A stretch of 64,000 bases of DNA from the NCBI GenBank assembly GCA_000497125.2, contig CM035321.1:690001-754000 (forward strand), read 5' to 3'. The notes under the pieces were generated by a model. The model was not told the DNA's origin. It saw nothing but the letters and a program-made list of their open reading frames with translations, and did not search any database. The stretch's first letter is position 1; every line of letters begins with the position of its first letter. Shown here one piece after another: positions 13,626 to 44,769 of this stretch. Made by a program: the position numbers and the translations under genes. This DNA is from Spironucleus salmonicida. Lineage: Eukaryota > Fornicata > Diplomonadida > Hexamitidae.

Positions 13626-16600
13626 ATGAACAAGGCAATCATTATTGGATGCGGTTGTGTGGGAGCTTTTACGGCATTGGAGATGTCAAAATCTAATCTG
13701 AGTACTATGTTAATAGAGGCTGCCCCTGAGCCTGCTTTTGGTACAACAAATGCTAATTCAGGTATTGTCCACTCTTCTCATAATACTTAACCTAATACGC
13801 TAAAATTCACACTAGTAGATTCTGGAAATAGAGAAATTAAGAGACTGTCTACTATCTTAAACTATGGTTATAAATAATGTGGTGAGATAGTTGTCATTCA
13901 ATGCCAAGAGTAGATGCCAAAACTTGAAGAAATGATTGACTTGGCCAAAGCTTAAAATCTCAATATTGAATTATTAAATAAAGAAAAATTATAAGCGCTT
14001 GAACCAAATGTTGTTGGATTTGCTGGCCTACTTGTTAAAGATGCAGGGGTCGTTAACCCATACGAAATGACTTAGGCAGTTTGGAATACGGCGGCCGCTA
14101 ACGGTGTGGTAGGTAAATTCAATGAAAAAGTTACTAGCATAGAGAAAATTGGCGAGCTTTGGTAAGTGAAGACTAATAAAGGATGCTATGAATCAGAGTT
14201 CGTGGTCAACTGTGCCGGTTTATTTGCCGAAGAAATCTCCAAAATGGCATTAAAAGATGCAAACCGAGTTAAAATAATGCCAAGAAAAGGCGAAGAATAT
14301 CTTCTTGACAAGGACTGTAAAGACTTAGTACACAGTATCATTTTCCCCCTCCCCAGTGGAAACTCTAAAGGAACCTTGGTTATTCCTACCGTTGATGGAA
14401 CTATTATGGTAGGCCCTACTGCGCAGTAGACTGAAGATAAAAGCGACAGGTCCACTACCGCAGAAGGCAGAGAAAAGGTATTCGCGGAGGCCAGAAAACT
14501 GGTCCCAAGCTTGAACGAAGCAACTGCTATAGCTTATTTCACTGGAATCAGAGCCAGCGACGAATCCGGAGATTTCATAGTGGAGAAAATCAACAATTTC
14601 ATCAACCTCGCAGGAATCCAGTCCCCAGGCCTGACGGCGAGCCCGATTTTAGGCAAAATGGGCGCAGATTTCATCACCAAAAATCGCACGCGAGAAATAG
14701 CATACGTACCGTTACATACTAAGTTTATCAACGGCGACAAGGAAGCACTGATTCGCGAGGATGGAAACCACTCCAAAATCGTATGCGGCTGCGAAATGGT
14801 GTCGCTAGCGGACGTGCACAACGCGATTACAGACGGAGCGCGGACGCTCGACGGCATCAAAACACGCTCCCGGGCGGGCATGGGCCGCTGCCAGGGCGGT
14901 TTTTGCACGGAGACCGTCGCAGCCATTTTGGCCGCGCGGCTTGGCGCCCCCAAAAGCGCTATTTGCAAGAATGTGCACGGCAGCAATCTGATCAGCAGCG
15001 AAGTTGATGGCATACCATGCGTGCAGGAGCTTGAGGACGCGCTGCCGTACCACGCGGTCCAACTGGCCGATTTGAAGGTGCTGGTGAAGTCGAAATCGCG
15101 CGATGCGGTGATCGCCCAAATCGAGGCGAATCACTGCTTCGACGTGGTCGTCCTGGGGGCCGGGCCAGCCGGGCTTGCAGCAGCGTCTTCGGCCGCCGCA
15201 CTTGGCAAATCGGTCCTGGTGCTCGAAAAGGGCGCCCGCGCGGGGGGCATTCTGGTGCAGTGCATCCACGGCGGCTTCGGGCTCCGCAAGTACAAGCAGG
15301 AGCTTACGGGCCCCGAATACGCGGAGCTGCTCGAATCGGACTGTCTTCAGTCGAACGCGAGCATTCTGATGCATTCGTTCGTGTTTCAGTGCGCGGAAAC
15401 GGGCGGCGGGTACACAATTTCGACCGTCACGAGGGGCCTCGGCGTGCGGCACTTCTCGGCGAAGGCGCTGATTTCGTGCATGGGCTGCCGCGAGAGATCC
15501 CGTGCGGGGGTGCGCATTCCGGGCACTCGGCCCGCGGGCGTCTACTCGGCTGGGCTGGCGCAGCAGATGATCAACATGGACGGGCAGCTGCCTGGGAAGA
15601 ACGTGGTGATCCTGGGCTCTGGCGATATCGGGCTGATTATGGCCCGCAGGTGCACCTTGGAGGGCGCGCGCGTTTTGGGCGTCTACGAGCTCTTGCCGCG
15701 CTGCTCTGGCCTTTAGCGAAATGTCGAATAGTGCTTAACCGATTTCGGAATTCCGCTCCATCTGTCTACCACGGTTGTAAATATAATTGGAGAACCTCGG
15801 ATCACCGCGGTGGACCTTGCTCCGGTGGATCCTGTAACTTTGCAGCCAGATCTCACGAAAACTACAAGGCTCGAATGCGACTGTTTGTTACTCTCGGTTG
15901 GCCTTATTCCGCAGGCTAAAGTTGCCGTTACTTTGGGTGGAAAGGTGAATCCAAAAACCAGGCTTATAGAGGTTGATTCGTTCAAACGTGTTAGCGGGCG
16001 CTTCTTTACAGCCGGAAATTGCCTTTAGGTTCATGATTTGGCGGATGATGCCGCCGAAGAGGGGCATGATGCTGGAAGAGCTGCCGCTCTTCTTTTGGAG
16101 ACATCTGTAGCCCCTGGTACGCTGGTTGTACAAACTGATGAAAACGTATTGTTCTCTGTGCCGCAATTCCTTATCAAAGAGCTCGATTCATAGTCAATAA
16201 GCATCCGCGTCAATAAGATTCTTGGGAGATGCAAAGTTGTGGCGAGATGCGGATAAGAAATTGTGGGGGAGACGGAGGTTGCTCACGCCGTTCCAGCGGA
16301 GATGGTTCACGTTCGTATAAAGAAAGTTGACAGTAATGTATCTATCGCAATTGAAAAGTTAGAAGAAGTGGAGGTTGATAAATCTCAAAGATAGATCACG
16401 TGTATTGTATGTCCTAATGGGTGCAATATGCTTGTAAAACTCGGGAATGCCAATGATATCGAAGAGATTACAGGCAATTAATGCAAATCCGGCATTAGCT
16501 ACGCTAGATAAGAAATTGTTGAGCCGTTTAGAACATTTTCTACATCTATTGCAATAGAGAATGGCGAGACGACTAGACTTCCTGTAAAGCTTTCCAAGCC

Positions 16601-16742
16601 TATCCCTAGAAATAAACTTATAGAGGCAGCTAAGAAAATAAGGCAATGCGTTGTAAAGGCCCCCATTATGATGGGCGATGTCGTACTTAAGGGTATTTTC
16701 GGCTCAAAGGTTGTAGCCTGCTGCAGTGTCTTAGAAAAATGA
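13626..16742 (+). CDS. Fused FAD oxidoreductase (GlpA-like/BFD/NAD-oxidoreductase/DUF1667)
   Basis: A 1038-aa four-module protein. Residues 4-18 form a GlpA/LhgO-type FAD fold ([14 protein letters not shown]). Around 384-430 lies a BFD-like [2Fe-2S] module with CGC and CQGGFC cysteines. From about 505 there is a second flavin fold ([13 protein letters not shown]) with an NAD-binding site near 660 ([15 protein letters not shown]). Residues about 924-1038 are DUF1667 with CIVCPNGC and a further Cys. In bacteria these are three adjacent genes linked to anaerobic glycerol-3-phosphate oxidation, and Giardia has a related fused G3P dehydrogenase, so this is the likely activity. The first 0.85 kb and last 1 kb are AT-rich with many TAA/TAG; the middle (14.8-15.7 kb) is strongly GC-rich. 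The left arm of the palindrome begins inside it at 15203. Confidence 0.88.
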
Positions 16743-18533
16743 CATAGTGATAAGTTTTTATTTCTCGCTTAAATATTCAATCCGTTTACAGTAATGTGAT
16801 GTAGACCAGCAGAAAATTGGTTAATATTAAATTTAGCATAATTTCAGTCTATTCTAATTACACTTAATTAAATTTCATTATAAATAATGTATGACTCATA
16901 ATGTTGCACCATATACTGTGCTTAGTCTGCAATCTAGCCCAAACTCATCTTATCAATAACTATTATAAATTTATTAGTAGTCGTCACCAATATGCATCTG
17001 TACTAATTACATTAGTATTTACATTCTAGTAAGCCTTAACATTCTTGAAAAGGCATTCGTACTGTTTCTAGACTAGTGCTCTTTTGTTATATAAATATGT
17101 TACTATGCTCGAACACTCTTACACCATACAAATTGTTAGTAATGTTCATATACATTGCAAAAATCAATTAATTTATCCTAACATAAATTTCATATTCGAA
17201 GAAACCCAATCCAGTTGCGTTAAATACAGTGTTATACGATAAAGCCTATAAAATGATATGCAAATAATACCACTCTATCCATCTTTATCTACAAATATTT
17301 AAATGATATATACTCAAAATCGTGATATTATTAAGTACGAAACTGTCCAAAAAATATATCACGGCTATGTATTACAGGTATTTGTTCCATTATAATATAT
17401 GCCTAGAGCTCAAACAGTTTCAAAGAATATTGCTTAGAAAATGTAACTGTTCTCAATATTTTGGAAAGCAGCAATGATTATTATTTTCACTACAAAATCT
17501 TAAATGGGTGCTTAAATAGTTTGGCAGTTATTGATAAGATTTTGAAAAATTTAGGCTAAATTATTGATATATAGCGTTTCAGATAACGTATTTCGTGGAT
17601 ATAACTATTATGATTGTCAGAAGTCATTGTTGCGCCAACAATAAGCTATCTAAATAGAATAAGCAATAATTTTTATAGTTAGCATATTTATTATAATATG
17701 TATGCGATGACTTAATAGGCTAAAAAAGACTAGTGACGATGTTTCGGTATAATCTTTTTAAAAACTTATAACAATAACTATTATATAGAAAGCCAGTATG
17801 TTCCTTCTATAGCAATTTCGCCAAGTATAGCTATTTCATGTAATCAGATGCTATATATTTATCTGAATATAATTATATTAGAGTACCTAAATTTAATTAT
17901 AAAAATTTCAAAATCTGCATACTATTATCGAGATAATATGACATATGTAAGTATTATTCTTGTTATTCGCGATTTGAATTGGAATTTCGCAATTATCGTA
18001 AGATTACGGAAAACACAAACCTGGTCCTCACTTTACTGATAGCCTTGTCACACCTGATCAATACACCCTAACCAAAAAACTGATCAAGACGTGAGATTAT
18101 ATATTTTCTTCTTTCACGGCCCCTGAAAGTTCTATCTGTGCCGCCTACTTACTGGTACTTGTATGCAAAGAAAAACTGCGCGCTGTTTGGTATTCTAGAC
18201 GATTGAACTTGTATAGTTGATATGATTTCTTATTATTCGCCCAATTCGCTTTGGACTCAACAATGTATTATCAGCCAATTCCGCTCTAACCAACTTTATG
18301 GGCATGCCCCTTGGAGTCCATACTTCCAGCTGGGCCTTCGCATTACACAATTGTATTTATCTTTCGTAGTGGCTAATATTCATATATATTTATGGTCAAT
18401 ATGCTTCTTTATAGATCTAGTATTTCTTGGCACAGAATCTTGTAACGCTAGATACTGCTCGAGGAAAACTGACAACCAATAGACACGCGCTACCACCATA
18501 CGACAGCGAAATTATATATTTTCTCGCTTTGAG
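16743..18533. other. Non-coding stretch within left arm
   Basis: Mostly AT-rich with no gene I can support. A weak frame opens at 18222 in phase with the ORF at 18534, but the right-arm copy carries an in-frame TGA there, so it is not conserved. Arm-to-arm differences cluster near 17280 in a TCTA/TATC microsatellite-like tract. Confidence 0.45.
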
Positions 18534-19295
18534 ATGCCAGTCGAGAGTCTGTGTATGCGCCTCTTTACACAATCCTCTATCCTGATAATTTGCATGCTTG
18601 TAGGCTGTGCAGTCGCAACACTGAAGAGCTAGATCTTATTCTACGCCAATATGTAGGATAAAGTGGTGTACTAAGCATGCTACAACTCCTATGTGGCCAT
18701 TTATATTCAAAAATTTGAAAAGTAAATGAATGCATATCGCTTAAAAGTTTTAAATAATATACAAATCCTCAGAAGTTGTATAATATACACTATATGTTGC
18801 CTATCTACATTATCCATGTCTATCTTGACCTACTGCACTACTACATTATCTGCGTTAGTATTCAGCATTCCTAACCACTGTCAGCGGCTGTTGTCTGTAA
18901 TTTTATTAAAAGCCCACGTGTATCTTGGAGGGAAGATGGATCATCTCACAGCAGTCTTCAGCTATCAGCTGCTCAACCCAGAAGTTGTGTATTGTGGTAT
19001 GTTCTGTGCATGGTATGATGGTATTCGTTTTTACAATAATTATGGCTTTCGCGCTGTACAGTTTATTGCTGCCATATGCTTCTGCGTCACGGGGCCTCCT
19101 AACCAGATTCTCTTCCCCTATTATGGTAATTTGACTTACCTGAATATCATCATAGGATGCCTGTAGCATTATTTCCTACTTAAGTTGTAAGTAACATAAC
19201 TGCAATTAGGTTGCGTGAAACTTCCTGCATCCTTTGATAACATCATTACTGGTCGACCGATCGCCAAATAATAGTTTCAGATGCACTAAGTATGA
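18534..19295 (+). CDS. Possible multi-span membrane protein
   Basis: A 253-codon frame from ATG 18534 to TGA 19293-19295. Hydrophobic segments include SILIICMLVGCAVATL near residues 14-29, a cluster near 80-105 (IIYTICCLSTLSMSIL) and two more in the C-terminal half. The layout recalls small four-span proteins but there is no tetraspanin CCG signature. The opposite strand is also TGA-free for about 257 codons, so coding is uncertain. In the right arm three nearby residues change (VGCA to ADCT). Confidence 0.35.
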
Positions 19296-20555
19296 ATATG
19301 GTCAGGACGTCACATGGTGCGTCTTGTACATCGGTTTTACCTCCAGAATCGAGGGACATTCCAGGAGGCGAGAATTATAGGAATTCTAATCTTCTAATAA
19401 TGCGTAGCATGCTTAGTCATTATATTAACTCCTTACGCTATCGCAACACTAGCATACAGAAACAAGTTACTGTTGCTAGAAATAGTTTGTCTGTTCTACT
19501 AGCCTGCAGCTATCTATCGGCAAATAGTTTGCATGATTGTGTTTTAAGGATTACGAAGGATATCCAGCTATTTTGATCTGTCAAAGTCATGTTACCTAAT
19601 CATAGCACTGACGGTTAACCCAAACCTAGAAGTTATGACCAGCCTCAACCAAGAAATATAAAAGGACTCGATGTCTTAGTAGTCCCAGGAACGAAGATTA
19701 CTGGTAATGGCAAAAACTGCAGATATAATGTGTCATCATTAATACACCATAAATCAGTTCTATGGAGTCTGGTGCATTTGCAACCACTTTAATAAGCAAA
19801 ATACACTATCGTGTTAAATCACTACTCCTTCTAATTGAAATTGCAGGCACCAATATATGTTAAGCTTAAATTCAGCACCACTATCCTAAATTTTTAAAAT
19901 TTGCAGATGCGCTACTGGCCCAGCACAAAATTGCCATACCGCTCTGTTAATACTCCCGGAGTAGTACATGAAGCTAGACTTTCAGCACAGAAATTCCATT
20001 TTTCAAAATAACATAAACCGCACATTTACCTATTTTGGGTATCTACATTGTACTTCGACGGGCTTGCAGGACCAGACTATCTTTTATCACTTGATCTGCA
20101 ATTTGAGTTAAAATAGTAAATGCGCTTGAAACGAGCAAACTTTCTTGATGGTTATAATGTAAATATGTGTCATCTTAGGCAGCAAAAAGGCCAATGCAGA
20201 AGAATGTTTAGCACACTCGACCAAGGATATTCATCATTCTAAATCGGGAAACAAAGTTTATTGCAAATGCTGAACCCAATATTTAGCAATTGAAGTACTG
20301 GAAGCAGAGTAGTTCTTGTAAAGTGTCATTTAGCAAAATGTTTAAAAATTATCTGAACACTGAGATGTTTTACAGAGTTTTGATCTATTCTTAAAAACTT
20401 ACTTATTTAAGAATTTCTTATTTTCAGCTTAAGGAAGCAGTTCAAAATTATAGAATATGATATATACGAAACGGTTAATATAAATAAGCAGTCATTTAGC
20501 CTACCAGTTTCCCCATGCAGCGACCTCAAGCAGTAGAACCAACAAACCCTCACTT
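19296..20555. other. Non-coding stretch within left arm
   Basis: Short frames only (for example 19292-19576), none protein-like. It includes the recurring TACTGTTGCTAGAAAT word and lies downstream of the 1775-aa gene. Confidence 0.4.
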
Positions 20556-23500
20556 TCACTCAAGAATTATCACGTGGACGACGCCATCCTCGATGGCCAC
20601 TATAACAGCTTTGAGTCGTGTGAACGTTTCCAGTAAGTTCTCTTTGGATTCGTAAATAGTCTCGAAACAATCCTCCTTAAAAGATGTTCTCTACCTTCTC
20701 GTAATAGACATTTAGTATAAATATTTTACGTTAAATGCAAAAAATCCATCATCAAATTATAGTAACGCGCATGCTGCATCAAAAACTTTGTCTTCCTTCT
20801 TTTGCAGGAATTCGATATCGCGCTCGGAGAGTTTGCTTTTATACGTTTCGATTGCACTTTTGCACAAAATTTCGTATTACAATCCAGTGCCTTCAGCTTC
20901 AATTTCTGACTGACTGAAAGCTGGAGGATTGAACTGCTCATGATCAGTGGTGAGCTTGCAGACTATTAACGTTTAATCTACAACCTACACTGGGAACAGA
21001 TGTAGGCGTGAAAAGTATGTGAAAATGTCAGTAGCACCAATGTCAGCTTCGACCTCTTTGGTATCCTTGATAGCCTAGTCGCTAAAGAAGGTTTTGTAAG
21101 TCACCTTGCTTTTGTCTGTACAAGAGTTTACTATTTAGACGAGCTCTTTAAGAATCAGTGGTGGTAGCGTAGTGTTTTCTGTCCTAGAGGAATTCAGTAA
21201 ATTTGGGACCCAGTCGTGAGTCTGTAGATGAATGCAGGTCCTGGCTTCTTCTACTTTCTCCTGAATATCACCTAACTGGCTAAACAGATATTTATACTCC
21301 TCAATAAACTAGTGCACGTCTATCTGGCAGGTGCCAGCTTCTAGAATGCTGTCATCTGACTGAATGAACTTTTGAACTTTCTTAGATTATACATATTTTA
21401 AGACCATATTCTAGTCTTTAAACGCGTCTTAGATAGCTTGACCTTCCTTTAAGACAACATAAACCTGCTTCTACGTGGGATCCATGAATACGTTATTCAA
21501 GATAGTTTTTAGTTTTTCGTATGCATAGTCTTACACAGCGAAATATGTTCTTTCTTCCTTGACACGTAAATCATTGTTCTCTTCTATAAGTTTATCTTAC
21601 TATTTTTTCAAGTTCTATTATTATGTTGCATCTTTGCATTTTTGCCTTTGTTTAGCTAAAGCCAATTGGCTGGCTTCATTCTCTTTGATAATTTCGCCCA
21701 GTTTTTTAGTTAGCGCGTAATATTCCTCCCTAGAGCCACTAAAGCCACCAATCTAACCTACTTTAGTCAGTAGTATATTTTATTTTTGGATCTATTGTTC
21801 TGCATATGTTTATTTCTTTTATGCCTACTTCACCATATCAGTTACTTTTGCAACGGTCTCAGTTTTTGCGTTTTATTTAGATTCCACATCTAAGAGTTAA
21901 GCTTTCAGCTTTTCCACCTTCCCAGTAGCCCTTTCAAGGTCAACATATACTTGTTCTTCCTCTTCCTTTAATAGCTTCTGAACCTGCAATTCTCCTTCTT
22001 TTGTAATCTTCCGCCCTTGCTTGATTAGGTCAATTTATGCCGTACTTATCCCGGGCACATTGGTCGTTTGGAAGCATATGTGAACTCCAGCATCATTTGA
22101 TTTATTGAAAACTGCCAAATTACCACGCGTACCTGAGTCTAGCAGAAAGTTAAGACTCTGAAATTGGCGTTCCTTGACTAAGTGCTACTGCACTGATAGC
22201 ATATCATTGTACAGTAAGTTATTGGTGTTTTCTTCTATGGTTCCGAATAACGATATCAAGTAGTCTGGCATTGCAGGGTAATGTTTCAAAAGCAGATTTT
22301 AAATTTTAGTCTTATCCAAAATACTAACAATTGCTATTTTTTGATTGGATTCTAGTAATTTCATTTCACACAGCGTAGCCTAGCAGTTGGCTGCATTTGC
22401 TATTGCATGCTAAATATAGCTTTTAATATTCCGCTTATCTGCCGATTGGAAGAATATGTCAAAGGATTGCTGCAGAAACATGAAAGTGGCCCCCTAAAAT
22501 AGAGTTTATAAATTGTTATAGATTGTTTCCAAGGGAGTGGTGATATCGTAGCTGGTGACCTACACCGGGTTAAAGTATATTTCTAGAAATTGCTCATACT
22601 AGTTAAGCTCGCTCATAAGCCTATTAAGTAGTAACATATGACTGTCGCTAACTATATTCAAATCAGCGCGTGTACTATCTTAAGATCCAGTGCAAGATAA
22701 CTGCATAACAAGAAATATTGCCGCAGAGATTTCAGATATTTATTACTATTTGAACAAACACAGCATCTGATCGATGCCACTTTTCTCTCTGGGGAATATT
22801 TACATTGCATCCTGTCCTAAACGTCTCAGATTTGTCAAGAATTATTAGCTCGCTAAGAAATTTAATACGAACACCACATCTCGATTCAGCGATGAGGAAG
22901 ACGTGCGATGTAAATGTTTATTAAATTCTGCAATTGACTACGGTTCAAACAGTACCTCTTGGTCGTTCGAATTTATGAGCTAGTTAGCTCCAACTAATTC
23001 CTCATCCCTCATTATGCACAATGAATTTTGAATTTACATATGAGAAGAAATCTAGTTCAAAGGAATCTCCTTTTCGTTCACTTTGAACTAAAATTACTGT
23101 GTAGTGTTAAAAAAGTATGCATTTGCACCCTCATTAATAATTATCTATGGGCACACCAGGGGGCACATGAACTGCATCTCTGCCGCTAGCTCGGGTGCAG
23201 CCGTAAGGTAGAAATCCTTGATGTCCATACCCTATACCTGCTTCTTTACGTATTGGATCATAGAATCGTCAGTGAGGGCTGCAATTTGCATACCTTGGTA
23301 GTAGCGTTAAGTCAAGCAGGAGGAGTGCATTTAGGAGGTGCCCAGTATATTAGATTCTGTAAATATGTTACTGCCTCTACTATTGCAAGAAGTGTAGCGA
23401 GATTAATTGTATCCAATGAAGTTTACAATCGATATATCCGTTCCAGCGGTCAGTAGGTGAACGGTATTCTTCGAGGTAAAGGGTACTTCTTCGTAAACAT

Positions 23501-25883
23501 TCTTTTAAGGGAATGTTATCTTAACATCATATGTATTTTTGAAGAAATCTGTATACTGGTTTTCTGTACCAAACTATTTCCTAAAATATTCGTTTAATTT
23601 ATATGTAACATCAATTGGTGTATTCAATCTGGTAGTTCTATTGTGTTAATTGATAAAATAAGAAACATTAAGCCAGAATATCGTCTCGACCCCACGCGGG
23701 TTGTACAGCATAATGAGGAACTAGTAGATTTTCTCTCTGAATACTTCCAACGTACTTTATTTTGTAAGATCTTACATCATTTCCTAGAACGACTTCTATA
23801 CGATTAATGGCTATCTAAGGTTGCTAAAATTGGGTGACGAAATACCCATTAGATCAATAATTTTATAGGCTTTACAGTTTTTGAATAGTTCAGATGGTAT
23901 TAGCCTCAGGAAGTATCGTTCAATCTCTGTAGGATCAAGAAGAATTGATTCTAGTTTTTTCTTTGCATATTCTAAGTACTAAGGAGTGTCATAGTAATCA
24001 ATTTTCCTTACTATCAAACCATTTTAACGAATTTCTAACCAGTCTAATAATTATATGAGATAATTAACTGATATATCTTCTATTTTGTTAAGTATTTCAT
24101 CAATGCTCGATTTTGCCTTTTCCATAAATTTTACAACGAATTAATCTGTTATTCCCACTAGCGCGCTGGTGCACAATGCGTAGCTGGCTTTCTGCTAGGA
24201 TAAACACTCATCGACTAAAAGCATGACTTCCTTATTGGAGTTATACGATTAAACACTAATTGACCGGGGCTGAGTTTTGTATGCTCTATAAGAGTTTTTA
24301 CGCTACGTCAATAGCTCAATTTATTACTCTATAGCTCTAATAACGTCTTTCTAGTTTTGTATGCTGTCTTCCTAATTTAGTGTACCTATTATTTTTTTAG
24401 CTGCTTCTAATTTATTTGTAGACGCCTAAATTTCATCATCTAAGAATTTTGTAGTTTATTCTAATTACTTGTTCTGATCAAATTTAAAAAAATCAAGCAG
24501 GCCGGTCACAGAAAATTCACAAAATACTGACGTACCCTACAAATACAACTCAAACGCACCCTTAAGTTATTATTAGGCAGTATGCATATCATATATTTTG
24601 ATTAACTTGAAACACTCTGCTTTGACATAGGCCATCGTTTTAGAATATTCAACTCCATCTTTCAAATTACTACTAATAACGTCTCCAAGGTCAGTTTTAC
24701 TTTGATACTCGCAAAATAGAGCTCTTATGCCTTCACCAATCTCGATAGAAGTTCTATCGTATAGCGGCTGCGTTTCCAGCTCACGCGAATCTTTTGTAAA
24801 TCCTGTGTTAATCAATATGGGAATTTTTACCCCTGAGAACAGGTTGAAGTAGAAGATGGTGTGCAGGGTGACAGTTTTCCCGCTCCTCGAGCTCTGGCTC
24901 ATAACCGCATTATCTAGGGGGAAGAAGGCTGAGAACACCGCAAAGTACTGCGCCTTGAAGAGGTAGGACACGTCGCACATTTGCTGGAAGATGAACTTGT
25001 TGGTATCGTTAAACTCGAATATTTTTAGTAAATGCACTGGGAGCTCAAAGAAGTTTTAATAAGCTTGGGAAACCATTAAATCTGTATAAATTTATTATGA
25101 ATATGCTACTGCTTCTTGTGCACGAACTTGAATCGTGTAATTTCTCTTTACCACATCATTATTTTCCATTTGTTTGTAAATAAGGTATGCAGTATACCCT
25201 AGTATCATTGGCAGGAGATGCGCATATGTATCACATTTATGTAATGTTAATCCAATTATTTGCAGGATAGCCAATTACTCGACACTGCTAATGGCAGGTG
25301 GCATGTTAAACATAGGGTAAATTAGTTCATAACCATCATATTTCATATCAACTTTATTCTATTTTTATAAATTAATATCATCTTCAATCAAAATATAATT
25401 TGGAAATAATTTAGAGTCGATTGCTGAATTTTTAGAAACTATAACAATCTCGTGATCTGATTTCATGATTTCTACTTATACCTCTGCTAGTTTTTGTATT
25501 TCTTCATCGCCTATTACTTAATATGATAAAATTGAAAATCCCATTTGGATAGATAGTGAGACCAGGTTCAGCCAGTAGTCGGATACTGAGCTATTCTTTA
25601 AATCAAACGTCTTTTGAATAATGATTATCTAGACTTTCCGTTTGAACAGCAGTTCTTATTTGTGCTGCCACATGAAGAGGTGCAGGAGGCTGAGGTCTCC
25701 AACAGTATCAATGGTTATCCTCAGGTAGCGTACGGTATCGCCAACTTCGCTTATCTTAAATTAAGTTCCGCTGAATGCAAACACCACATCCTATTGAAGC
25801 TCCACCAGATCTTTGCCTAGCGAGGAAAAAGTGAGCTAGGCAGGCTTAGCTTCTGCCTTGGTATTCGAGCCCTGATCGGTCAT
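20556..25883 (-). CDS. Large 1775-aa protein, unknown (left copy)
   Basis: An uninterrupted frame of 1775 codons from ATG 25883 to TGA 20556-20558, with well over a hundred TAA/TAG glutamines. Residues about 1290-1450 are a long charged coiled coil (EGELQVQKLLKEEEEQ onward); the rest is alternating helical sequence. Segments such as SRSGKTVTLH near residue 335 resemble a P-loop only loosely, since the leading glycine is missing. The size and helix-coil-helix plan prompted comparison with dynein heavy chain, but no AAA+ motifs are present. The copy at 34091-39418 gives the same translation wherever I compared them. Function unknown; a structural or ciliary/cytoskeletal role is only a guess. 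Confidence 0.75.
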
Positions 25884-26914
25884 TTAAGGAGTAATAGTAA
25901 TTAGAGTGAAACCTATATATAGTATAATATTATATAGGCATGTTAAAAGTAATGTGGTTATCCACTAGTTCCTATAAACTAGTCTGCGTAATGGCCAATT
26001 ACATAAAGAACCGGGCGCGCAGTTGACACACTCAACGCGTTATTGGAACACGGTAACGCTGCACTGCTACACTAAGTGCGCAGCAGCTGCATAAAATTCT
26101 CACTATTATCTTTTACCTACCTGCATGCAGCACTCTGCCGTGCCGTACTAGTGGTCACTAGATATGGACAATATCCTAGTGCTAGGGATTTTGGCAAAAC
26201 TGCTATTCTAGACATACTATTATTTTACATATACCACCCAATATCTAGTTTGAAAATGAGCAGCGAGCCAAACTGCGTTATAAAGCAGCTCAGACAGACG
26301 CCCCTGTTGCGTGCAAAAACCAGGGCCTATCTTTATTCGACCAGCACGACTTCTGAATCACCAAAGTCTTCAGCTTCTGAAGGTTGACGCGAAAGTTTCT
26401 GGGTATTGTGCACTGGATGTACTTTACTTCGTCATACTTATGTTGAGGAGCAACCCTCTAATAACTTTTATGCGAGGCTCTACTATTCTATTATCTAACT
26501 GTAGTATACTATTCTCGCATAGTCTTTGGTACAGCTTTGCTCTTAAAGCCTAGATATATTTTACTTACTCGGGTGTAGCAGCTCGTTCGTACGGGCAGCT
26601 AGGTAAGTTGAAGTTGCATCATACATTAGTCATCTCATTGCTTAGTTGTGCTCCGCCGCTCTCTAAAGCCTTTTCCTCGTCATTAAAGGCATAGGCACAA
26701 TTATTAGGACTAGATGCCATATATCTACTATCAATAAAACATATAAATATGACAGTACTATTTCAATTTAAGTATTATCTATATATAAAGTATAATATCC
26801 TTTACTCTTGACTATCATAAAATTAGGTGTATTGAAATCGTTAAGTAGTTGCACTAAGTATTTTTAGATAGCATAATATTAGTTACTGCATGTCTATACT
26901 AATACAAACGTACA
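25884..26914. other. Intergenic segment in left arm
   Basis: Upstream region of the 1775-aa gene. A 110-codon minus-strand frame (26290-26622, mirrored at 33352-33684) is open but matches nothing. A 33-codon frame precedes it. I see no stronger feature. Confidence 0.35.
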
Positions 26915-31527: not shown

Positions 31528-31548
31528 TTGGAAGGGCCGCTCCAAATG
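31525..31548. promoter_or_regulatory. Dyad containing two divergent start codons
   Basis: CATTTGGA and TCCAAATG flank an 8-base core (AGGGCCGC). One half contains the MRE11 ATG (minus), the other the ATG of the GC-rich ORF (plus). The two start codons are 18 bases apart, so promoter and 5' leaders must overlap both genes. TCCAAATG also starts the gene at 12401, so it may be a start-site element. Confidence 0.55.
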
Positions 31549-32904: not shown

Positions 32905-33059
32905 CCGTAAGTAGTGCCGGGCCATTCGCGCCGTACTTGGCTTGGTGGAGGCCATCGCGTGGGAGGTCCTGCGCCAGCTCCCGAGGTCGCCCAGGCGCGG
33001 TGAGCAGCCCCAGGAGGCGGTGACTCGCCTAGGTGCTGCAGCTTCTCTGCAAGTGACAC
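32801..33059 (-). pseudogene. Internally deleted WRKY-gene relic (right arm)
   Basis: Mirror copy of 26915-27173: same N-terminal remnant, same missing zinc-finger region, same C-terminal tail and TGA. Both relics therefore predate the inverted duplication. Confidence 0.85.
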
Positions 33060-34090
33060 TGTACGTTTGTATTAGTATAGACATGCAGTAACTAATATTA
33101 TGCTATCTAAAAATACTTAGTGCAACTACTTAACGATTTCAATACACCTAATTTTATGATAGTCAAGAGTAAAGGATATTATACTTTATATATAGATAAT
33201 ACTTAAATTGAAATAGTACTGTCATATTTATATGTTTTATTGATAGTAGATATATGGCATCTAGTCCTAATAATTGTGCCTATGCCTTTAATGACGAGGA
33301 AAAGGCTTTAGAGAGCGGCGGAGCACAACTAAGCAATGAGATGACTAATGTATGATGCAACTTCAACTTACCTAGCTGCCCGTACGAACGAGCTGCTACA
33401 CCCGAGTAAGTAAAATATATCTAGGCTTTAAGAGCAAAGCTGTACCAAAGACTATGCGAGAATAGTATACTACAGTTAGATAATAGAATAGTAGAGCCTC
33501 GCATAAAAGTTATTAGAGGGTTGCTCCTCAACATAAGTATGACGAAGTAAAGTACATCCAGTGCACAATACCCAGAAACTTTCGCGTCAACCTTCAGAAG
33601 CTGAAGACTTTGGTGATTCAGAAGTCGTGCTGGTCGAATAAAGATAGGCCCTGGTTTTTGCACGCAACAGGGGCGTCTGTCTGAGCTGCTTTATAACGCA
33701 GTTTGGCTCGCTGCTCATTTTCAAACTAGATATTGGGTGGTATATGTAAAATAATAGTATGTCTAGAATAGCAGTTTTGCCAAAATCCCTAGCACTAGGA
33801 TATTGTCCATATCTAGTGACCACTAGTACGGCACGGCAGAGTGCTGCATGCAGGTAGGTAAAAGATAATAGTGAGAATTTTATGCAGCTGCTGCGCACTT
33901 AGTGTAGCAGTGCAGCGTTACCGTGTTCCAATAACGCGTTGAGTGTGTCAACTGCGCGCCCGGTTCTTTATGTAATTGGCCATTACGCAGACTAGTTTAT
34001 AGGAACTAGTGGATAACCACATTACTTTTAACATGCCTATATAATATTATACTATATATAGGTTTCACTCTAATTACTATTACTCCTTAA
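33060..34090. other. Intergenic segment in right arm
   Basis: Mirror of 25884-26914. It contains the open but unrecognised 110-codon frame 33352-33684 (plus) and a 33-codon frame from 33254 that overlaps its start. Confidence 0.35.
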
Positions 34091-37000
34091 ATGACCGATC
34101 AGGGCTCGAATACCAAGGCAGAAGCTAAGCCTGCCTAGCTCACTTTTTCCTCGCTAGGCAAAGATCTGGTGGAGCTTCAATAGGATGTGGTGTTTGCATT
34201 CAGCGGAACTTAATTTAAGATAAGCGAAGTTGGCGATACCGTACGCTACCTGAGGATAACCATTGATACTGTTGGAGACCTCAGCCTCCTGCACCTCTTC
34301 ATGTGGCAGCACAAATAAGAACTGCTGTTCAAACGGAAAGTCTAGATAATCATTATTCAAAAGACGTTTGATTTAAAGAATAGCTCAGTATCCGACTACT
34401 GGCTGAACCTGGTCTCACTATCTATCCAAATGGGATTTTCAATTTTATCATATTAAGTAATAGGCGATGAAGAAATACAAAAACTAGCAGAGGTATAAGT
34501 AGAAATCATGAAATCAGATCACGAGATTGTTATAGTTTCTAAAAATTCAGCAATCGACTCTAAATTATTTCCAAATTATATTTTGATTGAAGATGATATT
34601 AATTTATAAAAATAGAATAAAGTTGATATGAAATATGATGGTTATGAACTAATTTACCCTATGTTTAACATGCCACCTGCCATTAGCAGTGTCGAGTAAT
34701 TGGCTATCCTGCAAATAATTGGATTAACATTACATAAATGTGATACATATGCGCATCTCCTGCCAATGATACTAGGGTATACTGCATACCTTATTTACAA
34801 ACAAATGGAAAATAATGATGTGGTAAAGAGAAATTACACGATTCAAGTTCGTGCACAAGAAGCAGTAGCATATTCATAATAAATTTATACAGATTTAATG
34901 GTTTCCCAAGCTTATTAAAACTTCTTTGAGCTCCCAGTGCATTTACTAAAAATATTCGAGTTTAACGATACCAACAAGTTCATCTTCCAGCAAATGTGCG
35001 ACGTGTCCTACCTCTTCAAGGCGCAGTACTTTGCGGTGTTCTCAGCCTTCTTCCCCCTAGATAATGCGGTTATGAGCCAGAGCTCGAGGAGCGGGAAAAC
35101 TGTCACCCTGCACACCATCTTCTACTTCAACCTGTTCTCAGGGGTAAAAATTCCCATATTGATTAACACAGGATTTACAAAAGATTCGCGTGAGCTGGAA
35201 ACGCAGCCGCTATACGATAGAACTTCTATCGAGATTGGTGAAGGCATAAGAGCTCTATTTTGCGAGTATCAAAGTAAAACTGACCTTGGAGACGTTATTA
35301 GTAGTAATTTGAAAGATGGAGTTGAATATTCTAAAACGATGGCCTATGTCAAAGCAGAGTGTTTCAAGTTAATCAAAATATATGATATGCATACTGCCTA
35401 ATAATAACTTAAGGGTGCGTTTGAGTTGTATTTGTAGGGTACGTCAGTATTTTGTGAATTTTCTGTGACCGGCCTGCTTGATTTTTTTAAATTTGATCAG
35501 AACAAGTAATTAGAATAAACTACAAAATTCTTAGATGATGAAATTTAGGCGTCTACAAATAAATTAGAAGCAGCTAAAAAAATAATAGGTACACTAAATT
35601 AGGAAGACAGCATACAAAACTAGAAAGACGTTATTAGAGCTATAGAGTAATAAATTGAGCTATTGACGTAGCGTAAAAACTCTTATAGAGCATACAAAAC
35701 TCAGCCCCGGTCAATTAGTGTTTAATCGTATAACTCCAATAAGGAAGTCATGCTTTTAGTCGATGAGTGTTTATCCTAGCAGAAAGCCAGCTACGCATTG
35801 TGCACCAGCGCGCTAGTGGGAATAACAGATTAATTCGTTGTAAAATTTATGGAAAAGGCAAAATCGAGCATTGAAGAAATACTTAACAAAATAGATGATA
35901 TATCAGTTAATTATCTCATATAATTATTAGACTGGTTAGAAATTCGTTAAAATGGTTTGATAGTAAGGAAAATTGATTACTATGACACTCCTTAGTACTT
36001 AGAATATGCAAAGAAAAAACTAGAATCAATTCTTCTTGATCCTACAGAGATTGAACGATACTTCCTGAGGCTAATACCATCTGAACTATTCAAAAACTGT
36101 AAAGCCTATAAAATTATTGATCTAATGGGTATTTCGTCACCCAATTTTAGCAACCTTAGATAGCCATTAATCGTATAGAAGTCGTTCTAGGAAATGATGT
36201 AAGATCTTACAAAATAAAGTACGTTGGAAGTATTCAGAGAGAAAATCTACTAGTTCCTCATTATGCTGTACAACCCGCGTGGGGTCGAGACGATATTCTG
36301 GCTTAATGTTTCTTATTTTATCAATTAACACAATAGAACTACCAGATTGAATACACCAATTGATGTTACATATAAATTAAACGAATATTTTAGGAAATAG
36401 TTTGGTACAGAAAACCAGTATACAGATTTCTTCAAAAATACATATGATGTTAAGATAACATTCCCTTAAAAGAATGTTTACGAAGAAGTACCCTTTACCT
36501 CGAAGAATACCGTTCACCTACTGACCGCTGGAACGGATATATCGATTGTAAACTTCATTGGATACAATTAATCTCGCTACACTTCTTGCAATAGTAGAGG
36601 CAGTAACATATTTACAGAATCTAATATACTGGGCACCTCCTAAATGCACTCCTCCTGCTTGACTTAACGCTACTACCAAGGTATGCAAATTGCAGCCCTC
36701 ACTGACGATTCTATGATCCAATACGTAAAGAAGCAGGTATAGGGTATGGACATCAAGGATTTCTACCTTACGGCTGCACCCGAGCTAGCGGCAGAGATGC
36801 AGTTCATGTGCCCCCTGGTGTGCCCATAGATAATTATTAATGAGGGTGCAAATGCATACTTTTTTAACACTACACAGTAATTTTAGTTCAAAGTGAACGA
36901 AAAGGAGATTCCTTTGAACTAGATTTCTTCTCATATGTAAATTCAAAATTCATTGTGCATAATGAGGGATGAGGAATTAGTTGGAGCTAACTAGCTCATA

Positions 37001-39418
37001 AATTCGAACGACCAAGAGGTACTGTTTGAACCGTAGTCAATTGCAGAATTTAATAAACATTTACATCGCACGTCTTCCTCATCGCTGAATCGAGATGTGG
37101 TGTTCGTATTAAATTTCTTAGCGAGCTAATAATTCTTGACAAATCTGAGACGTTTAGGACAGGATGCAATGTAAATATTCCCCAGAGAGAAAAGTGGCAT
37201 CGATCAGATGCTGTGTTTGTTCAAATAGTAATAAATATCTGAAATCTCTGCGGCAATATTTCTTGTTATGCAGTTATCTTGCACTGGATCTTAAGATAGT
37301 ACACGCGCTGATTTGAATATAGTTAGCGACAGTCATATGTTACTACTTAATAGGCTTATGAGCGAGCTTAACTAGTATGAGCAATTTCTAGAAATATACT
37401 TTAACCCGGTGTAGGTCACCAGCTACGATATCACCACTCCCTTGGAAACAATCTATAACAATTTATAAACTCTATTTTAGGGGGCCACTTTCATGTTTCT
37501 GCAGCAATCCTTTGACATATTCTTCCAATCGGCAGATAAGCGGAATATTAAAAGCTATATTTAGCATGCAATAGCAAATGCAGCTAACTGCTAGGCTACG
37601 CTGTGTGAAATGAAATTACTAGAATCCAATCAAAAAATAGCAATTGTTAGTATTTTGGATAAGACTAAAATTTAAAATCTGCTTTTGAAACATTACCCTG
37701 CAATGCCAGACTACTTGATATCGTTATTCGGAACCATAGAAGAAAACACCAATAACTTACTGTACAATGATATGCTATCAGTGCAGTAGCACTTAGTCAA
37801 GGAACGCCAATTTCAGAGTCTTAACTTTCTGCTAGACTCAGGTACGCGTGGTAATTTGGCAGTTTTCAATAAATCAAATGATGCTGGAGTTCACATATGC
37901 TTCCAAACGACCAATGTGCCCGGGATAAGTACGGCATAAATTGACCTAATCAAGCAAGGGCGGAAGATTACAAAAGAAGGAGAATTGCAGGTTCAGAAGC
38001 TATTAAAGGAAGAGGAAGAACAAGTATATGTTGACCTTGAAAGGGCTACTGGGAAGGTGGAAAAGCTGAAAGCTTAACTCTTAGATGTGGAATCTAAATA
38101 AAACGCAAAAACTGAGACCGTTGCAAAAGTAACTGATATGGTGAAGTAGGCATAAAAGAAATAAACATATGCAGAACAATAGATCCAAAAATAAAATATA
38201 CTACTGACTAAAGTAGGTTAGATTGGTGGCTTTAGTGGCTCTAGGGAGGAATATTACGCGCTAACTAAAAAACTGGGCGAAATTATCAAAGAGAATGAAG
38301 CCAGCCAATTGGCTTTAGCTAAACAAAGGCAAAAATGCAAAGATGCAACATAATAATAGAACTTGAAAAAATAGTAAGATAAACTTATAGAAGAGAACAA
38401 TGATTTACGTGTCAAGGAAGAAAGAACATATTTCGCTGTGTAAGACTATGCATACGAAAAACTAAAAACTATCTTGAATAACATATTCATGGATCCCACG
38501 TAGAAGCAGGTTTATGTTGTCTTAAAGGAAGGTCAAGCTATCTAAGACGCGTTTAAAGACTAGAATATGGTCTTAAAATATGTATAATCTAAGAAAGTTC
38601 AAAAGTTCATTCAGTCAGATGACAGCATTCTAGAAGCTGGCACCTGCCAGATAGACGTGCACTAGTTTATTGAGGAGTATAAATATCTGTTTAGCCAGTT
38701 AGGTGATATTCAGGAGAAAGTAGAAGAAGCCAGGACCTGCATTCATCTACAGACTCACGACTGGGTCCCAAATTTACTGAATTCCTCTAGGACAGAAAAC
38801 ACTACGCTACCACCACTGATTCTTAAAGAGCTCGTCTAAATAGTAAACTCTTGTACAGACAAAAGCAAGGTGACTTACAAAACCTTCTTTAGCGACTAGG
38901 CTATCAAGGATACCAAAGAGGTCGAAGCTGACATTGGTGCTACTGACATTTTCACATACTTTTCACGCCTACATCTGTTCCCAGTGTAGGTTGTAGATTA
39001 AACGTTAATAGTCTGCAAGCTCACCACTGATCATGAGCAGTTCAATCCTCCAGCTTTCAGTCAGTCAGAAATTGAAGCTGAAGGCACTGGATTGTAATAC
39101 GAAATTTTGTGCAAAAGTGCAATCGAAACGTATAAAAGCAAACTCTCCGAGCGCGATATCGAATTCCTGCAAAAGAAGGAAGACAAAGTTTTTGATGCAG
39201 CATGCGCGTTACTATAATTTGATGATGGATTTTTTGCATTTAACGTAAAATATTTATACTAAATGTCTATTACGAGAAGGTAGAGAACATCTTTTAAGGA
39301 GGATTGTTTCGAGACTATTTACGAATCCAAAGAGAACTTACTGGAAACGTTCACACGACTCAAAGCTGTTATAGTGGCCATCGAGGATGGCGTCGTCCAC
39401 GTGATAATTCTTGAGTGA
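34091..39418 (+). CDS. Large 1775-aa protein, unknown (right copy)
   Basis: Right-arm copy of 20556-25883, open from ATG 34091 (after TACTCCTTAA) to TGA 39416-39418. Its start context and whole frame are intact, so both copies could be expressed. Coiled coil at about residues 1290-1450. Description as for the left copy; no family named. Confidence 0.75.
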
Positions 39419-40677
39419 AAGTGAGGGTTTGTTGGTTCTACTGCTTGAGGTCGCTGCATGGGGAAACTGGTAGGCTAAATGACTGCTTATTTATATTAAC
39501 CGTTTCGTATATATCATATTCTATAATTTTGAACTGCTTCCTTAAGCTGAAAATAAGAAATTCTTAAATAAGTAAGTTTTTAAGAATAGATCAAAACTCT
39601 GTAAAACATCTCAGTGTTCAGATAATTTTTAAACATTTTGCTAAATGACACTTTACAAGAACTACTCTGCTTCCAGTACTTCAATTGCTAAATATTGGGT
39701 TCAGCATTTGCAATAAACTTTGTTTCCCGATTTAGAATGATGAATATCCTTGGTCGAGTGTGCTAAACATTCTTCTGCATTGGCCTTTTTGCTGCCTAAG
39801 ATGACACATATTTACATTATAACCATCAAGAAAGTTTGCTCGTTTCAAGCGCATTTACTATTTTAACTCAAATTGCAGATCAAGTGATAAAAGATAGTCT
39901 GGTCCTGCAAGCCCGTCGAAGTACAATGTAGATACCCAAAATAGGTAAATGTGCGGTTTATGTTATTTTGAAAAATGGAATTTCTGTGCTGAAAGTCTAG
40001 CTTCATGTACTACTCCGGGAGTATTAACAGAGCGGTATGCAATTTTGTGCTGGACCAGTAGCGCATCTGCAAATTTAAAAAATTTAGGGCAGGGGTGCTG
40101 AATTTAAGGTTAACCTATATTGGTGCCTGCAATTTCAATTAGAAGGAGTAGTGATTTAACACGATAGTGTATTTTGCTTATTAAAGTGGTTGCAAATGCA
40201 CCAGACTCCATAGAACTGATTTATGGTGTATTAATGATGACACATTATATCTGCAGTTTTTGCCATTACCAGTAATCTTCGTTCCTGGGACTACTAAGAC
40301 ATCGAGTCCTTTTATATTTCTTGGTTGAGGCTGGTCATAACTTCTAGGTTTGGGTTAACCGTCAGTGCTATGATTAGGTAACATGACTTTGACAGATCAA
40401 AATAGCTGGATATCCTTCGTAATCCTTAAAACACAATCATGCAAACTATTTGCCGATAGATAGCTGCAGGCTAGTAGAACAGACAAACTATTTCTAGCAA
40501 CAGTAACTTGTTTCTGTATGCTAGTGTTGCGATAGCGTAAGGAGTTAATATAATGACTAAGCATGCTACGCATTATTAGAAGATTAGAATTCCTATAATT
40601 CTCGCCTCCTGGAATGTCCCTCGATTCTGGAGGTAAAACCGATGTACAAGACGCACCATGTGACGTCCTGACCATAT
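39419..40677. other. Non-coding stretch within right arm
   Basis: Mirror of 19296-20555. A short cluster of differences from the left arm lies near 40085-40120. No gene supported. Confidence 0.4.
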
Positions 40678-41439
40678 TCATACTTAGTGCATCTGAAACT
40701 ATTATTTGGCGATCGGTCGACCAGTAATGATGTTATCAAAGGATGCAGGAAGTTTCACGCAACCTAATTGCAGTTATGTTACTTACAACTTAAGTAGGAA
40801 ATAATGCTACAGGCATCCTATGATGATATTCAGGTAAGTCAAATTACCATAATAGGGGAAGAGAATCTGGTTAGGAGGCCCCGTGACGCAGAAGCATATG
40901 GCAGCAATAAACTGTACAGCGCGAAAGCCATAATTATTGTAAAAACGAATACCATCATACCATGCACAGAACATACCACAATACACAACTTCTGGGTTTA
41001 GCAGCTGATAGCTGAAGACTGCTGTGAGATGATCCATCTTCCCTCCAAGATACACGTGGGCTTTTAATAAAATTACAGACAACAGCCGCTGACAGTGGTT
41101 AGGAATGCTGAATACTAACGCAGATAATGTAGTAGTGCAGTAGGTCAAGATAGACATGGATAATGTAGATAGGCAACATATAGTGTATATTATACAACTT
41201 CTGAGGATTTGTATATTATTTAAAACTTTTAAGCGATATGCATTCATTTACTTTTCAAATTTTTGAATATAAATGGCCACATAGGAGTTGTAGCATGCTT
41301 AGTACACCACTTTATCCTACATATTGGCGTAGAATAAGATCTAGCTCTTCAGTGTTGCGACTGTACAGTCTGCAAGCATGCAAATTATCAGGATAGAGGA
41401 TTGTGTAAAGAGGCGCATACACAGACTCTCGACTGGCAT
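40678..41439 (-). CDS. Possible multi-span membrane protein (right copy)
   Basis: Mirror of 18534-19295, still open for 253 codons despite several substitutions. An in-phase upstream extension is closed by TGA here, supporting the shorter start if the gene is real. Confidence 0.33.
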
Positions 41440-43230
41440 CTCAAAGCGAGAAAATATATAATTTCGCTGTCGTATGGTGGTAGCGCGTGTCTATTGGTTG
41501 TCAGTTTTCCTCGAGCAGTATCTAGCGTTACAAGATACTGTGCCAAGAAATATTAGATCTATAAAGAAGCATATTGATCATAAATATCTATGAATATTAG
41601 CCACTACGAAAGATAAATACAATTGTGTAATGCGAAGGCCCAGCTGGAAGTATGGACTCCAAGGGGCATGCCCATAAAGTTGGTTAGAGCGGAATTGGCT
41701 GATAATACATTGTTGAGTCCAAAGCGAATTGGGCGAATAATAAGAAATCATATCAACTATACAAGTTCAATCGTCTAGAATACCAAACAGCGCGCAGTTT
41801 TTCTTTGCATACAAGTACCAGTAAGTAGGCGGCACAGATAGAACTTTCAGGGGTCGTGAAAGAAGAAAATATATAATCTCACGTCTTGATCAGTTTTTTG
41901 GTTAGGGTGTATTGATCAGGTGTGACAAGGCTATCAGTAAAGTGAGGACCAGGTTTGTGTTTTCCGTAATCTTACGATAATTGCGAAATTCCAATTCAAA
42001 TCGCGAATAACAAGAATAATACTTACATATGTCATATTATCTCGATAATAGTATGCAGATTTTGAAATTTTTATAATTAAATTTAGGTACTCTAATATAA
42101 TTATATTCAGATAAATATATAGCATCTGATTACATGAAATAGCTATACTTGGCGAAATTGCTATAGAAGGAACATACTGGCTTTCTATATAATAGTTATT
42201 GTTATAAGTTTTTAAAAAGATTATACCGAAACATCGTCACTAGTCTTTTTTAGCCTATTAAGTCATCGCATACATATTATAATAAATATGCTAACTATAA
42301 AAATTATTGCTTATTCTATTTAGATAGCTTATTGTTGGCGCAACAATGACTTCTGACAATCATAATAGTTATATCCACGAAATACGTTATCTGAAACGCT
42401 ATATATCAATAATTTAGCCTAAATTTTTCAAAATCTTATCAATAACTGCCAAACTATTTAAGCACCCATTTAAGATTTTGTAGTGAAAATAATAATCATT
42501 GCTGCTTTCCAAAATATTGAGAACAGTTACATTTTCTAAGCAATATTCTTTGAAACTGTTTGAGCTCTAGGCATATATTATAATGGAACAAATACCTGTA
42601 ATACATAGCCGTGATATATTTTTTGGACAGTTTCGTACTTAATAATATCACGATTTTGAGTATATATCATTTAAATATGTGTAGAGAGAGATAGATAGAG
42701 TGATATTATTTGCATATCATTTTATAGGCTTTATCGTATAACACTGTATTTAACGCAACTGGATTGGGTTTCTTCGAATATGAAATTTATGTTAGGATAA
42801 ATTAATTGATTTTTGCAATGTATATGAACATTACTAACAATTTGTATGGTGTAAGAGTGTTCGAGCATAGTAACATATTTATATAACAAAAGAGCACTAG
42901 TCTAGAAACAGTACGAATGCCTTTTCAAGAATGTTAAGGCTTACTAGAATGTAAATACTAATGTAATTAGTACAGATGCATATTGGTGACGACTACTAAT
43001 GTATTTATAATAGTTATTGGTAAAGATGATTTTGACAAGATTGCAGACTAAGCACAGTATATGGTGCAACATTATGAGTCATACATTATTTATAATGAAA
43101 TGTAATTAAGTGTAATTAGAATAGACTGAAATTATGCTAAATTTAATATTAACCAATTTTCTGCTGGTCTACATCACATTACTGTAAACGGATTGAATAT
43201 TTAAGCGAGAAATAAAAACTTATCACTATG
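41440..43230. other. Non-coding stretch within right arm
   Basis: Mirror of 16743-18533, including a GAGAGAGATAGATAGAG tract near 42680 that differs from the left arm. No gene supported. Confidence 0.45.
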
Positions 43231-44769
43231 TCATTTTTCTAAGACACTGCAGCAGGCTACAACCTTTGAGCCGAAAATACCCTTAAGTACGACATCGCCC
43301 ATCATAATGGGGGCCTTTACAACGCATTGCCTTATTTTCTTAGCTGCCTCTATAAGTTTATTTCTAGGGATAGGCTTGGAAAGCTTTACAGGAAGTCTAG
43401 TCGTCTCGCCATTCTCTATTGCAATAGATGTAGAAAATGTTCTAAACGGCTCAACAATTTCTTATCTAGCGTAGCTAATGCCGGATTTGCATTAATTGCC
43501 TGTAATCTCTTCGATATCATTGGCATTCCCGAGTTTTACAAGCATATTGCACCCATTAGGACATACAATACACGTGATCTATCTTTGAGATTTATCAACC
43601 TCCACTTCTTCTAACTTTTCAATTGCGATAGATACATTACTGTCACTTTCTTTATACGAACGTGAACCATCTCCGCTGGAACGGCGTGAGCAACCTCCGT
43701 CTCCCCCACAATTTCTTATCCGCATCTCGCCACAACTTTGCATCTCCCAAGAATCTTATTGACGCGGATGCTTATTGACTATGAATCGAGCTCTTTGATA
43801 AGGAATTGCGGCACAGAGAACAATACGTTTTCATCAGTTTGTACAACCAGCGTACCAGGGGCTACAGATGTCTCCAAAAGAAGAGCGGCAGCTCTTCCAG
43901 CATCATGCCCCTCTTCGGCGGCATCATCCGCCAAATCATGAACCTAAAGACAATTTCCGGCTGTAAAGAAGCGCCCGCTAACACGTTTGAACGAATCAAC
44001 CTCTATAAGCCTGGTTTTTGGATTCACCTTTCCACCCAAAGTAACGGCAACTTTAGCCTGCGGAATAAGGCCAACCGAGAGTAACAAACAGTCGCATTCG
44101 AGCCTTGTAGTTTTCGTGAGATCTGGCTGCAAAGTTACAGGATCCACCGGAGCAAGGTCCACCGCGGTGATCCGAGGTTCTCCAATTATATTTACAACCG
44201 TGGTAGACAGATGGAGCGGAATTCCGAAATCGGTTAAGCACTATTCGACATTTCGCTAAAGGACAGAGCAGCGCGGCAAGAGCTCGTAGACGCCCAAAAC
44301 GCGCGCGCCCTCCAAGGTGCACCTGCGGGCCATAATCAGCCCGATATCGCCAGAGCCCAGGATCACCACGTTCTTCCCAGGCAGCTGCCCGTCCATGTTG
44401 ATCATCTGCTGCGCCAGCCCAGCCGAGTAGACGCCCGCGGGCCGAGTGCCCGGAATGCGCACCCCCGCACGGGATCTCTCGCGGCAGCCCATGCACGAAA
44501 TCAGCGCCTTCGCCGAGAAGTGCCGCACGCCGAGGCCCCTCGTGACGGTCGAAATTGTGTACCCGCCGCCCGTTTCCGCGCACTGAAACACGAACGAATG
44601 CATCAGAATGCTCGCGTTCGACTGAAGACAGTCCGATTCGAGCAGCTCCGCGTATTCGGGGCCCGTAAGCTCCTGCTTGTACTTGCGGAGCCCGAAGCCG
44701 CCGTGGATGCACTGCACCAGAATGCCCCCCGCGCGGGCGCCATTTTCGAGCACCAGGACCGATTTGCCA
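43231..44769 (-). pseudogene. 5'-truncated, frameshifted oxidoreductase copy
   Basis: Corresponds to residues from about 526 to the end of the fused oxidoreductase. It lacks the GlpA-like and iron-sulphur modules, the start codon and the first glycine-rich FAD motif. A one-base deletion near 43654 (TGTCACTTT where the left arm has TGTCAACTTT) also breaks the frame before the DUF1667 module. It also carries substitutions (CSGL to CSVL, AISG to TISG on the antisense frame). It cannot encode the enzyme. Confidence 0.88.

Follow-up and report, generated by a model that had tools for sequence, protein, structure and literature searches.

A large palindrome on a chromosome of Spironucleus salmonicida, probably gene-converted and built from a largely subtelomeric duplication block

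Large gene-converted palindromes have been best studied on sex chromosomes. The palindromes of the human Y chromosome, for example P6, have arms that are more than 99.9% identical, with events counted in 378 chromosomes (PMC3723533), and long inverted repeats with evidence of active maintenance have been reported in three Caenorhabditis species (PMC1803023). For Spironucleus salmonicida, which belongs to the diplomonads, organisms with two diploid nuclei, a chromosome-scale assembly of 14.7 Mbp in 42 scaffolds was built from PacBio reads (N50 of 14.6 kb) and optical maps with Illumina polishing by Pilon, and 2.7 Mbp (19.2%) of it is duplicated at 95% or more (PMC9509377). Here, we describe a palindrome in this genome whose arms enclose a single-copy loop bearing an MRE11-like nuclease gene. 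It is contained in a 64,000-nucleotide window, bases 690,001-754,000 of the 1,673,122-bp contig C6, which from its number and size appears to be chromosome 6 and in whose interior the palindrome is placed. Judged from its sequence and by analogy, the locus is best read as a gene-converted palindrome that resembles those of the Y chromosome and was built from a largely subtelomeric duplication block. Among open-licence papers, none on Spironucleus palindromes or inverted duplications concerns this locus by title, and the available parts of the literature on Giardia palindromes, Spironucleus Mre11 (including PMC12134460) and S. salmonicida gene conversion added nothing on it.

The arms were delimited by a gap-free repeat search and BLAST, and the genome searched comprised 14,471,397 bp in 37 contigs. 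In window coordinates, the palindrome consists of:

15203 to 28457, forward strand: left arm (the BLAST match reaches 15196)
28458 to 31516, no strand: loop of 3,059 bp, found as DNA at a single genomic place
31517 to 44769, reverse strand: right arm, the reverse complement of the left arm (the BLAST match reaches 44777)

BLAST aligns 15196-28457 with 44777-31517 over 13,264 columns at 99.683% identity (37 mismatches, 5 gap letters, E=0), and the gap-free search resolves the arm into blocks at 15203-16327, 16328-19934 and 19928-28457, with mirror images up to 44769. Inside the arms as listed, identity is 99.73% over 13,252 compared sites, and the coordinate sums are 15203+44769=59972 at the outer ends and 28457+31517=59974 at the inner ends. 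This likeness is far beyond chance. A preliminary description, made from the sequence alone, had proposed 13.25-kb reverse-complement arms with sparse differences around a single-copy loop, and each of these points is borne out, coordinates and sums included. The locus thereby has the attributes of a large palindrome, namely inverted arms of about 10 kb or more that are over 99% alike and a unique spacer. Read with the standard code, the window yields 17 ATG frames of at least 150 amino acids (aa), and long genes appear with translation table 6, in which TAA and TAG encode glutamine; of 184 open reading frames (ORFs) of at least 100 aa in the window, 11 distinct ones were given to Pfam. From the outside inward, each arm carries the 3' portion of a glycerol-3-phosphate dehydrogenase-like gene, then about 3.8 kb in which no gene was recognised (a 357-aa ORF from there was given to Pfam), a 1,775-aa gene and a 452-aa ORF. 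The arm-core-arm shape had suggested a fission-yeast-type centromere, an idea that was only weighed and that lost its appeal once table 6 revealed genes in both arms and loop.

The arms are members of a dispersed, largely subtelomeric duplication family, which the preliminary description had missed. At least 48 matching pieces with 74-99% identity occur elsewhere in the genome, a lower bound drawn from the best candidates only. The largest are C6:927222-934636 (94%), C2:29488-37620 (89%), C8:16733-22358 (91%), C1:1881538-1887120 (87%), C2:1860690-1866264 (87%), C9:1-3932 (90%) and C4:1693612-1696830 (88%). All of these except the C6 piece are situated no more than about 41 kb from a contig end, which places family members at both ends of C2, at the left ends of C8 and C9 and at the right ends of C1 and C4; internal copies are also present, on C6, C7 and C2. 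At aligned sites, the arms are 89.5-93.2% identical to six subtelomeric copies and 95.8-95.9% identical to the copy at C6:927222, as compared to 99.73% between the arms. Among the best candidates of the arm search, a join of two haplotypes finds no support, as the matches on the small contigs C14, C22, C25 and C31 are short pieces of 80-85% identity. Telomere repeats, sought in the window as a sign of an old fusion (TAGG x3 with at most 1 mismatch), gave 0 matches, where 0.27 were expected.

The preliminary description had also remarked that genes are truncated at breakpoints that do not match, and this holds at the outer edges for the dehydrogenase-like gene, which is whole at the left and reduced to its 3' part at the right:

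13626 to 16742, forward strand: intact glycerol-3-phosphate dehydrogenase-like gene, 1,038 aa in table 6, with DAO, Fer2_BFD, Pyr_redox_2 and DUF1667 domains; spans the left outer edge
43231 to 44769, reverse strand: 3' part of the same gene, without its 5' half and with its frame broken by a 1-base deletion

The right arm keeps the gene from codon 527 onward and differs from the left copy at only 4 places, frameshift included. Hexamita inflata has a full-length relative of the same architecture (51% over 99%), as do others, and the left outer end is therefore native. In left-arm coordinates, the right outer edge falls at about 15195-15203. The 5' part of the gene is likewise missing at all six edge-reaching places outside C6, whose copies start at 15200 (C8, C2 left and C14) or 15180 (C1, C2 right and C22). 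The right arm's edge is no more than about 25 bp from any of the six starts, an agreement with a chance of about 0.4% if edges were random over the arm (50 of 13,255); C14 and C22 are small contigs of unknown place, and the C9 and C4 copies stop short of the edge. Just inside the edge, at position 15230, the right arm encodes Asn, and so does each of the 5 other copies read (C2 left, C8 left, C1 right, C2 right and C22; C14 was not among them). The left gene encodes Lys at this site, and Lys or Arg is found in 19 of 19 aligned relatives, the best 19 other matches out of 1,115, in an alignment of 20 proteins that includes the window's own. On this alignment, Asn at 15230 is one derived site common to the right arm and the other copies.

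The differences between the arms are unevenly distributed. Gap positions included, the outer 4,732 bp contain 34 of them and the inner 8,523 bp contain 5 (Fisher p=4e-11, odds ratio 12), and merging differences no more than 15 bp apart leaves 22 events, 17 outer and 5 inner (p=1.4e-4). Independently of where the arm is split, the longest gap between events is 4,007 bp, a length matched in 33 of 5,000 random placements. A tree of 8 rows (6 in the case of the outer 1,560 bp) groups the two arms together at 100/100 support and sets them apart from the subtelomeric copies, of which that on C8 is nearest to them. Both arms differ from four agreeing subtelomeric copies at 259 sites (here and below, site counts exclude gapped columns and the C6:927222, C9 and C4 copies). 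At 17280-17294 and 18385-18436, the alleles that distinguish the two arms also occur as alternatives among the subtelomeric copies, which hints at exchange with those copies.

At the inner edge, the right arm runs into a gene of the loop and the left arm ends in a copy of its first bases:

30082 to 31527, reverse strand: MRE11-like nuclease gene, 481 aa, with a Metallophos domain; its first 11 bases lie inside the right arm
28447 to 28457, forward strand: 11-base copy of the 5' end of the MRE11-like gene, at the inner end of the left arm
28953 to 29867, reverse strand: 304-aa ORF in the loop, with no Pfam family above the cut-off

The MRE11-like gene is the only copy found in the genome, and its start codon, at 31527, lies within the right arm. 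Its protein matches Metallophos in Pfam (E=6.5e-8), and three of its four solved relatives are named Mre11, the fourth being an 'exonuclease putative' (E values from 5.5e-5 to 5.9e-4); with a calcineurin-like phosphoesterase domain and Mre11 proteins as its best solved relatives, it is predicted to be an Mre11. A protein search for MRE11 relatives in diplomonads gave no protein other than that of the window, and Pfam and solved structures were therefore used to assess the N-terminus. The Metallophos match starts with residue 2 of the protein against profile position 2, and residue 6 is paired with residue 6 in chain 1s8e, the 'exonuclease putative', which we take to be Pyrococcus Mre11. The first codons therefore look native rather than borrowed, and the right inner end likewise looks native from these alignments. 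The left arm ends in the same 11 bases and then diverges, and the duplicated block has its outer limit inside the dehydrogenase-like gene and its inner limit at codon 4 of the MRE11-like gene. The native outer end is on the left arm and the native inner end on the right arm, so a crossover or a phasing choice is needed: a single copied block would put both native ends on one arm, and the present arrangement therefore calls either for one crossover between the arms, which inverts the loop, or for a wrongly assembled orientation, which fits equally well because the local junction sequence is the same in either orientation. Since both arms end in the same upstream sequence and first 11 bases, inversion of the loop should leave the MRE11-like gene intact. 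In other eukaryotes, Mre11 acts on hairpins and palindromes, and its occurrence in a palindrome loop is curious; a single case is no evidence of a link.

We consider it probable that the locus is a real inverted segmental duplication of older date that was later overwritten by arm-to-arm gene conversion. The truncated copy would be old, as the outer part of the block, broken at nearly the same point, is found close to several chromosome ends, where it has diverged by 7-10%. Gene conversion between the two facing C6 copies would then have copied sequence from one onto the other, the latest tract covering the 8.5 kb nearest the loop, and a crossover between the arms would have inverted the loop at least once, unless the assembly chose an orientation that the reads did not fix. 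From this one assembly, we infer both that conversion made the arms alike and that the loop was inverted. The preliminary description had left three origins open, a very recent event, maintenance by conversion or an assembly join; conversion is now favoured by the uneven distribution of the differences and by the codon shared at the right edge, and the assembly option persists chiefly for the orientation of the loop.

That the arms are more alike than their age allows is favoured by the edge coincidence, the one derived codon and the uneven divergence, and is weakened by several observations. The other copies share one outer flank among themselves and the right arm has another, and given this difference a common origin of the right edge is not proven; the shared codon is a single site. 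Past 15203, the similarity of the other copies is not significant, as 59, 79, 88 and 105 of 500 shuffles reach the score in the four copies compared. By site counts, overall likeness to the subtelomeric copies is no greater for the right arm than for the left, as the right arm alone agrees with four of them at 11 sites and the left alone at 18. Positions that are variable among the subtelomeric copies account for 7 of 36 differing sites versus 498 of 5,530 columns. The split at 19934 was picked after viewing the differences, and the p-values for it are overstated. Local hypermutation might also explain the clusters of differences, as might the copying of patches from other family members or short-read polishing of near-identical repeats, Pilon having been used. 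At the inner edge, the alignment with 1s8e begins at residue 6, and residues 1-5 of the MRE11-like protein, codons 1-4 of the gene among them, lie outside it.

That the left block was duplicated in inverted orientation very recently and without conversion, the likeness of the arms simply reflecting their youth, is in our judgement unlikely. Such an event would account for the 99.7% identity of the arms, for their being each other's closest kin, for the small number of differences in the truncated dehydrogenase copy (4, the frameshift among them) and for the right arm being no nearer overall to the subtelomeric copies, but it leaves unexplained why the right edge falls so near the edge of the other copies, why the codon at 15230 is shared with them and why the outer/inner odds ratio is 12, albeit for a split chosen afterwards. 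Moreover, a fresh copy should carry both native ends on one arm, and the assembly shows otherwise.

We regard as rather improbable an assembly artefact, in which the second arm, or the orientation of the loop alone, would result from joining reads that did not span the 13-kb repeat. The library read N50 was 14.6 kb and the arms measure 13.25 kb (PMC9509377); as the inner junctions would be locally the same in both orientations of the loop, only reads spanning a whole arm could fix it, and native ends on different arms are what a wrong orientation would produce. However, the 37 mismatches between the arms, the two distinct outer flanks, the single-copy loop and the proximity of the right edge to the edge of an independent repeat family argue against an artefact, and a simple fold-back read, against which the preliminary description had also argued, is disfavoured on the same four grounds. 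The optical maps are also reported to agree well with the assembly, with normal depth at the two largest duplications, in an account that does not name this locus (PMC9509377).

It is possible, although on balance doubtful, that the locus acts as an inversion-tolerant cassette: the loop, with the only MRE11-like gene found, would flip repeatedly in both directions by arm recombination in the population of nuclei, either arm providing the same upstream sequence and start codon, while the arms would also belong, as an interior member, to a network of subtelomeric conversion. That the flip is instead a selected switch altering the expression of loop genes is very improbable, for although long inverted arms surround a short gene-bearing loop and the MRE11-like start and the divergent 452-aa ORF meet at the junction, both arms end alike, so that the MRE11-like gene retains its start whichever way the loop lies, the 11 distinct window ORFs examined with Pfam (of 184) matched no recombinase family, and about 500 bp of loop sequence lie beyond the 3' end of the 304-aa ORF.

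The remaining genes of the arms, and the WRKY-domain gene that adjoins the right outer edge with its remnant in the arms, are:

20556 to 25883, reverse strand: 1,775-aa gene, left copy, of a multicopy S. salmonicida family; no Pfam family above the cut-off
34091 to 39418, forward strand: 1,775-aa gene, right copy, with 3 amino-acid differences
27070 to 28428, reverse strand: 452-aa ORF, left copy
31546 to 32904, forward strand: 452-aa ORF, right copy, with 1 amino-acid difference
44791 to 45624, reverse strand: WRKY-domain gene, 277 aa
26901 to 27184, forward strand: remnant resembling the WRKY-domain gene, 75-91% alike in pieces, without its middle and mirrored in the right arm

For the 1,775-aa protein, 7 relatives were found beyond the window's own, all from S. 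salmonicida; a label on one of them names it a dynein heavy chain, an assignment unsupported by Pfam or solved structures. The 452-aa ORF looks coding from the G+C content of its three codon positions (0.85, 0.58 and 0.90), and is about 77% G+C overall versus about 33% for the genome (PMC9509377). It is whole in the two arms only; fragments of it lie at C6:934492-935001, and C6:734640-734900 matches it weakly. The three arm ORFs examined with Pfam (1,775, 452 and 357 aa) matched no transposase or reverse transcriptase family, terminal repeats not having been searched for as such, and no cysteine-rich surface gene was recognised among them, in the absence of a search aimed at such genes. No non-coding RNA or tRNA was found within the window, tRNAs having been sought with ARAGORN and the bacterial code. 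The WRKY-domain gene region (window 44780-45636) abuts the right outer edge, and the remnant in each arm lacks the WRKY part.

Other duplications were observed on C6. Within C6:925722-947272 lies a second inverted pair of the arm family, with arms about 10.7 kb apart; in the 21.5 kb examined, it does not amount to a second palindrome of similar size, as its arms (930265-932645 and 943392-945772) are only 2.4 kb long and 95.6% identical. In the left flank, window 9000-12781 is repeated in direct orientation at C6:659741-663549 (97%), and its part from 9390 onward also at C6:680458-683830 (98%). In the right flank, the region of an ABC-transporter gene (window 47562-53309) has a 98% alike inverted copy at C6:777100-782847, and inverted duplications therefore recur on this contig. 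The right flank also contains a gene of glycosyl hydrolase family 20, beta-hexosaminidase-like, at window 55472-56815.

If the arms were indeed shaped by conversion, this locus would represent a large gene-converted palindrome on an ordinary protist chromosome, outside the sex chromosomes, and conversion and inversion would be measurable in a culturable diplomonad. The available text on the duplicated regions of the S. salmonicida assembly describes neither palindromes nor the present locus (PMC9509377). The Caenorhabditis inverted repeats were followed in three species, whereas the palindrome described here comes from one genome, but both contain nearly perfect inverted gene pairs, whose structure is kept in Caenorhabditis (PMC1803023). 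Unlike P6 of the human Y chromosome, which has arms of more than 99.9% identity on a sex chromosome, the present palindrome has arms of 99.7% identity on an ordinary protist chromosome, is formed by a block with subtelomeric copies, and has its conversion read from one assembly; like P6, it has long inverted near-identical arms and, if our reading is correct, arm-to-arm gene conversion and inversion by crossover (PMC3723533).

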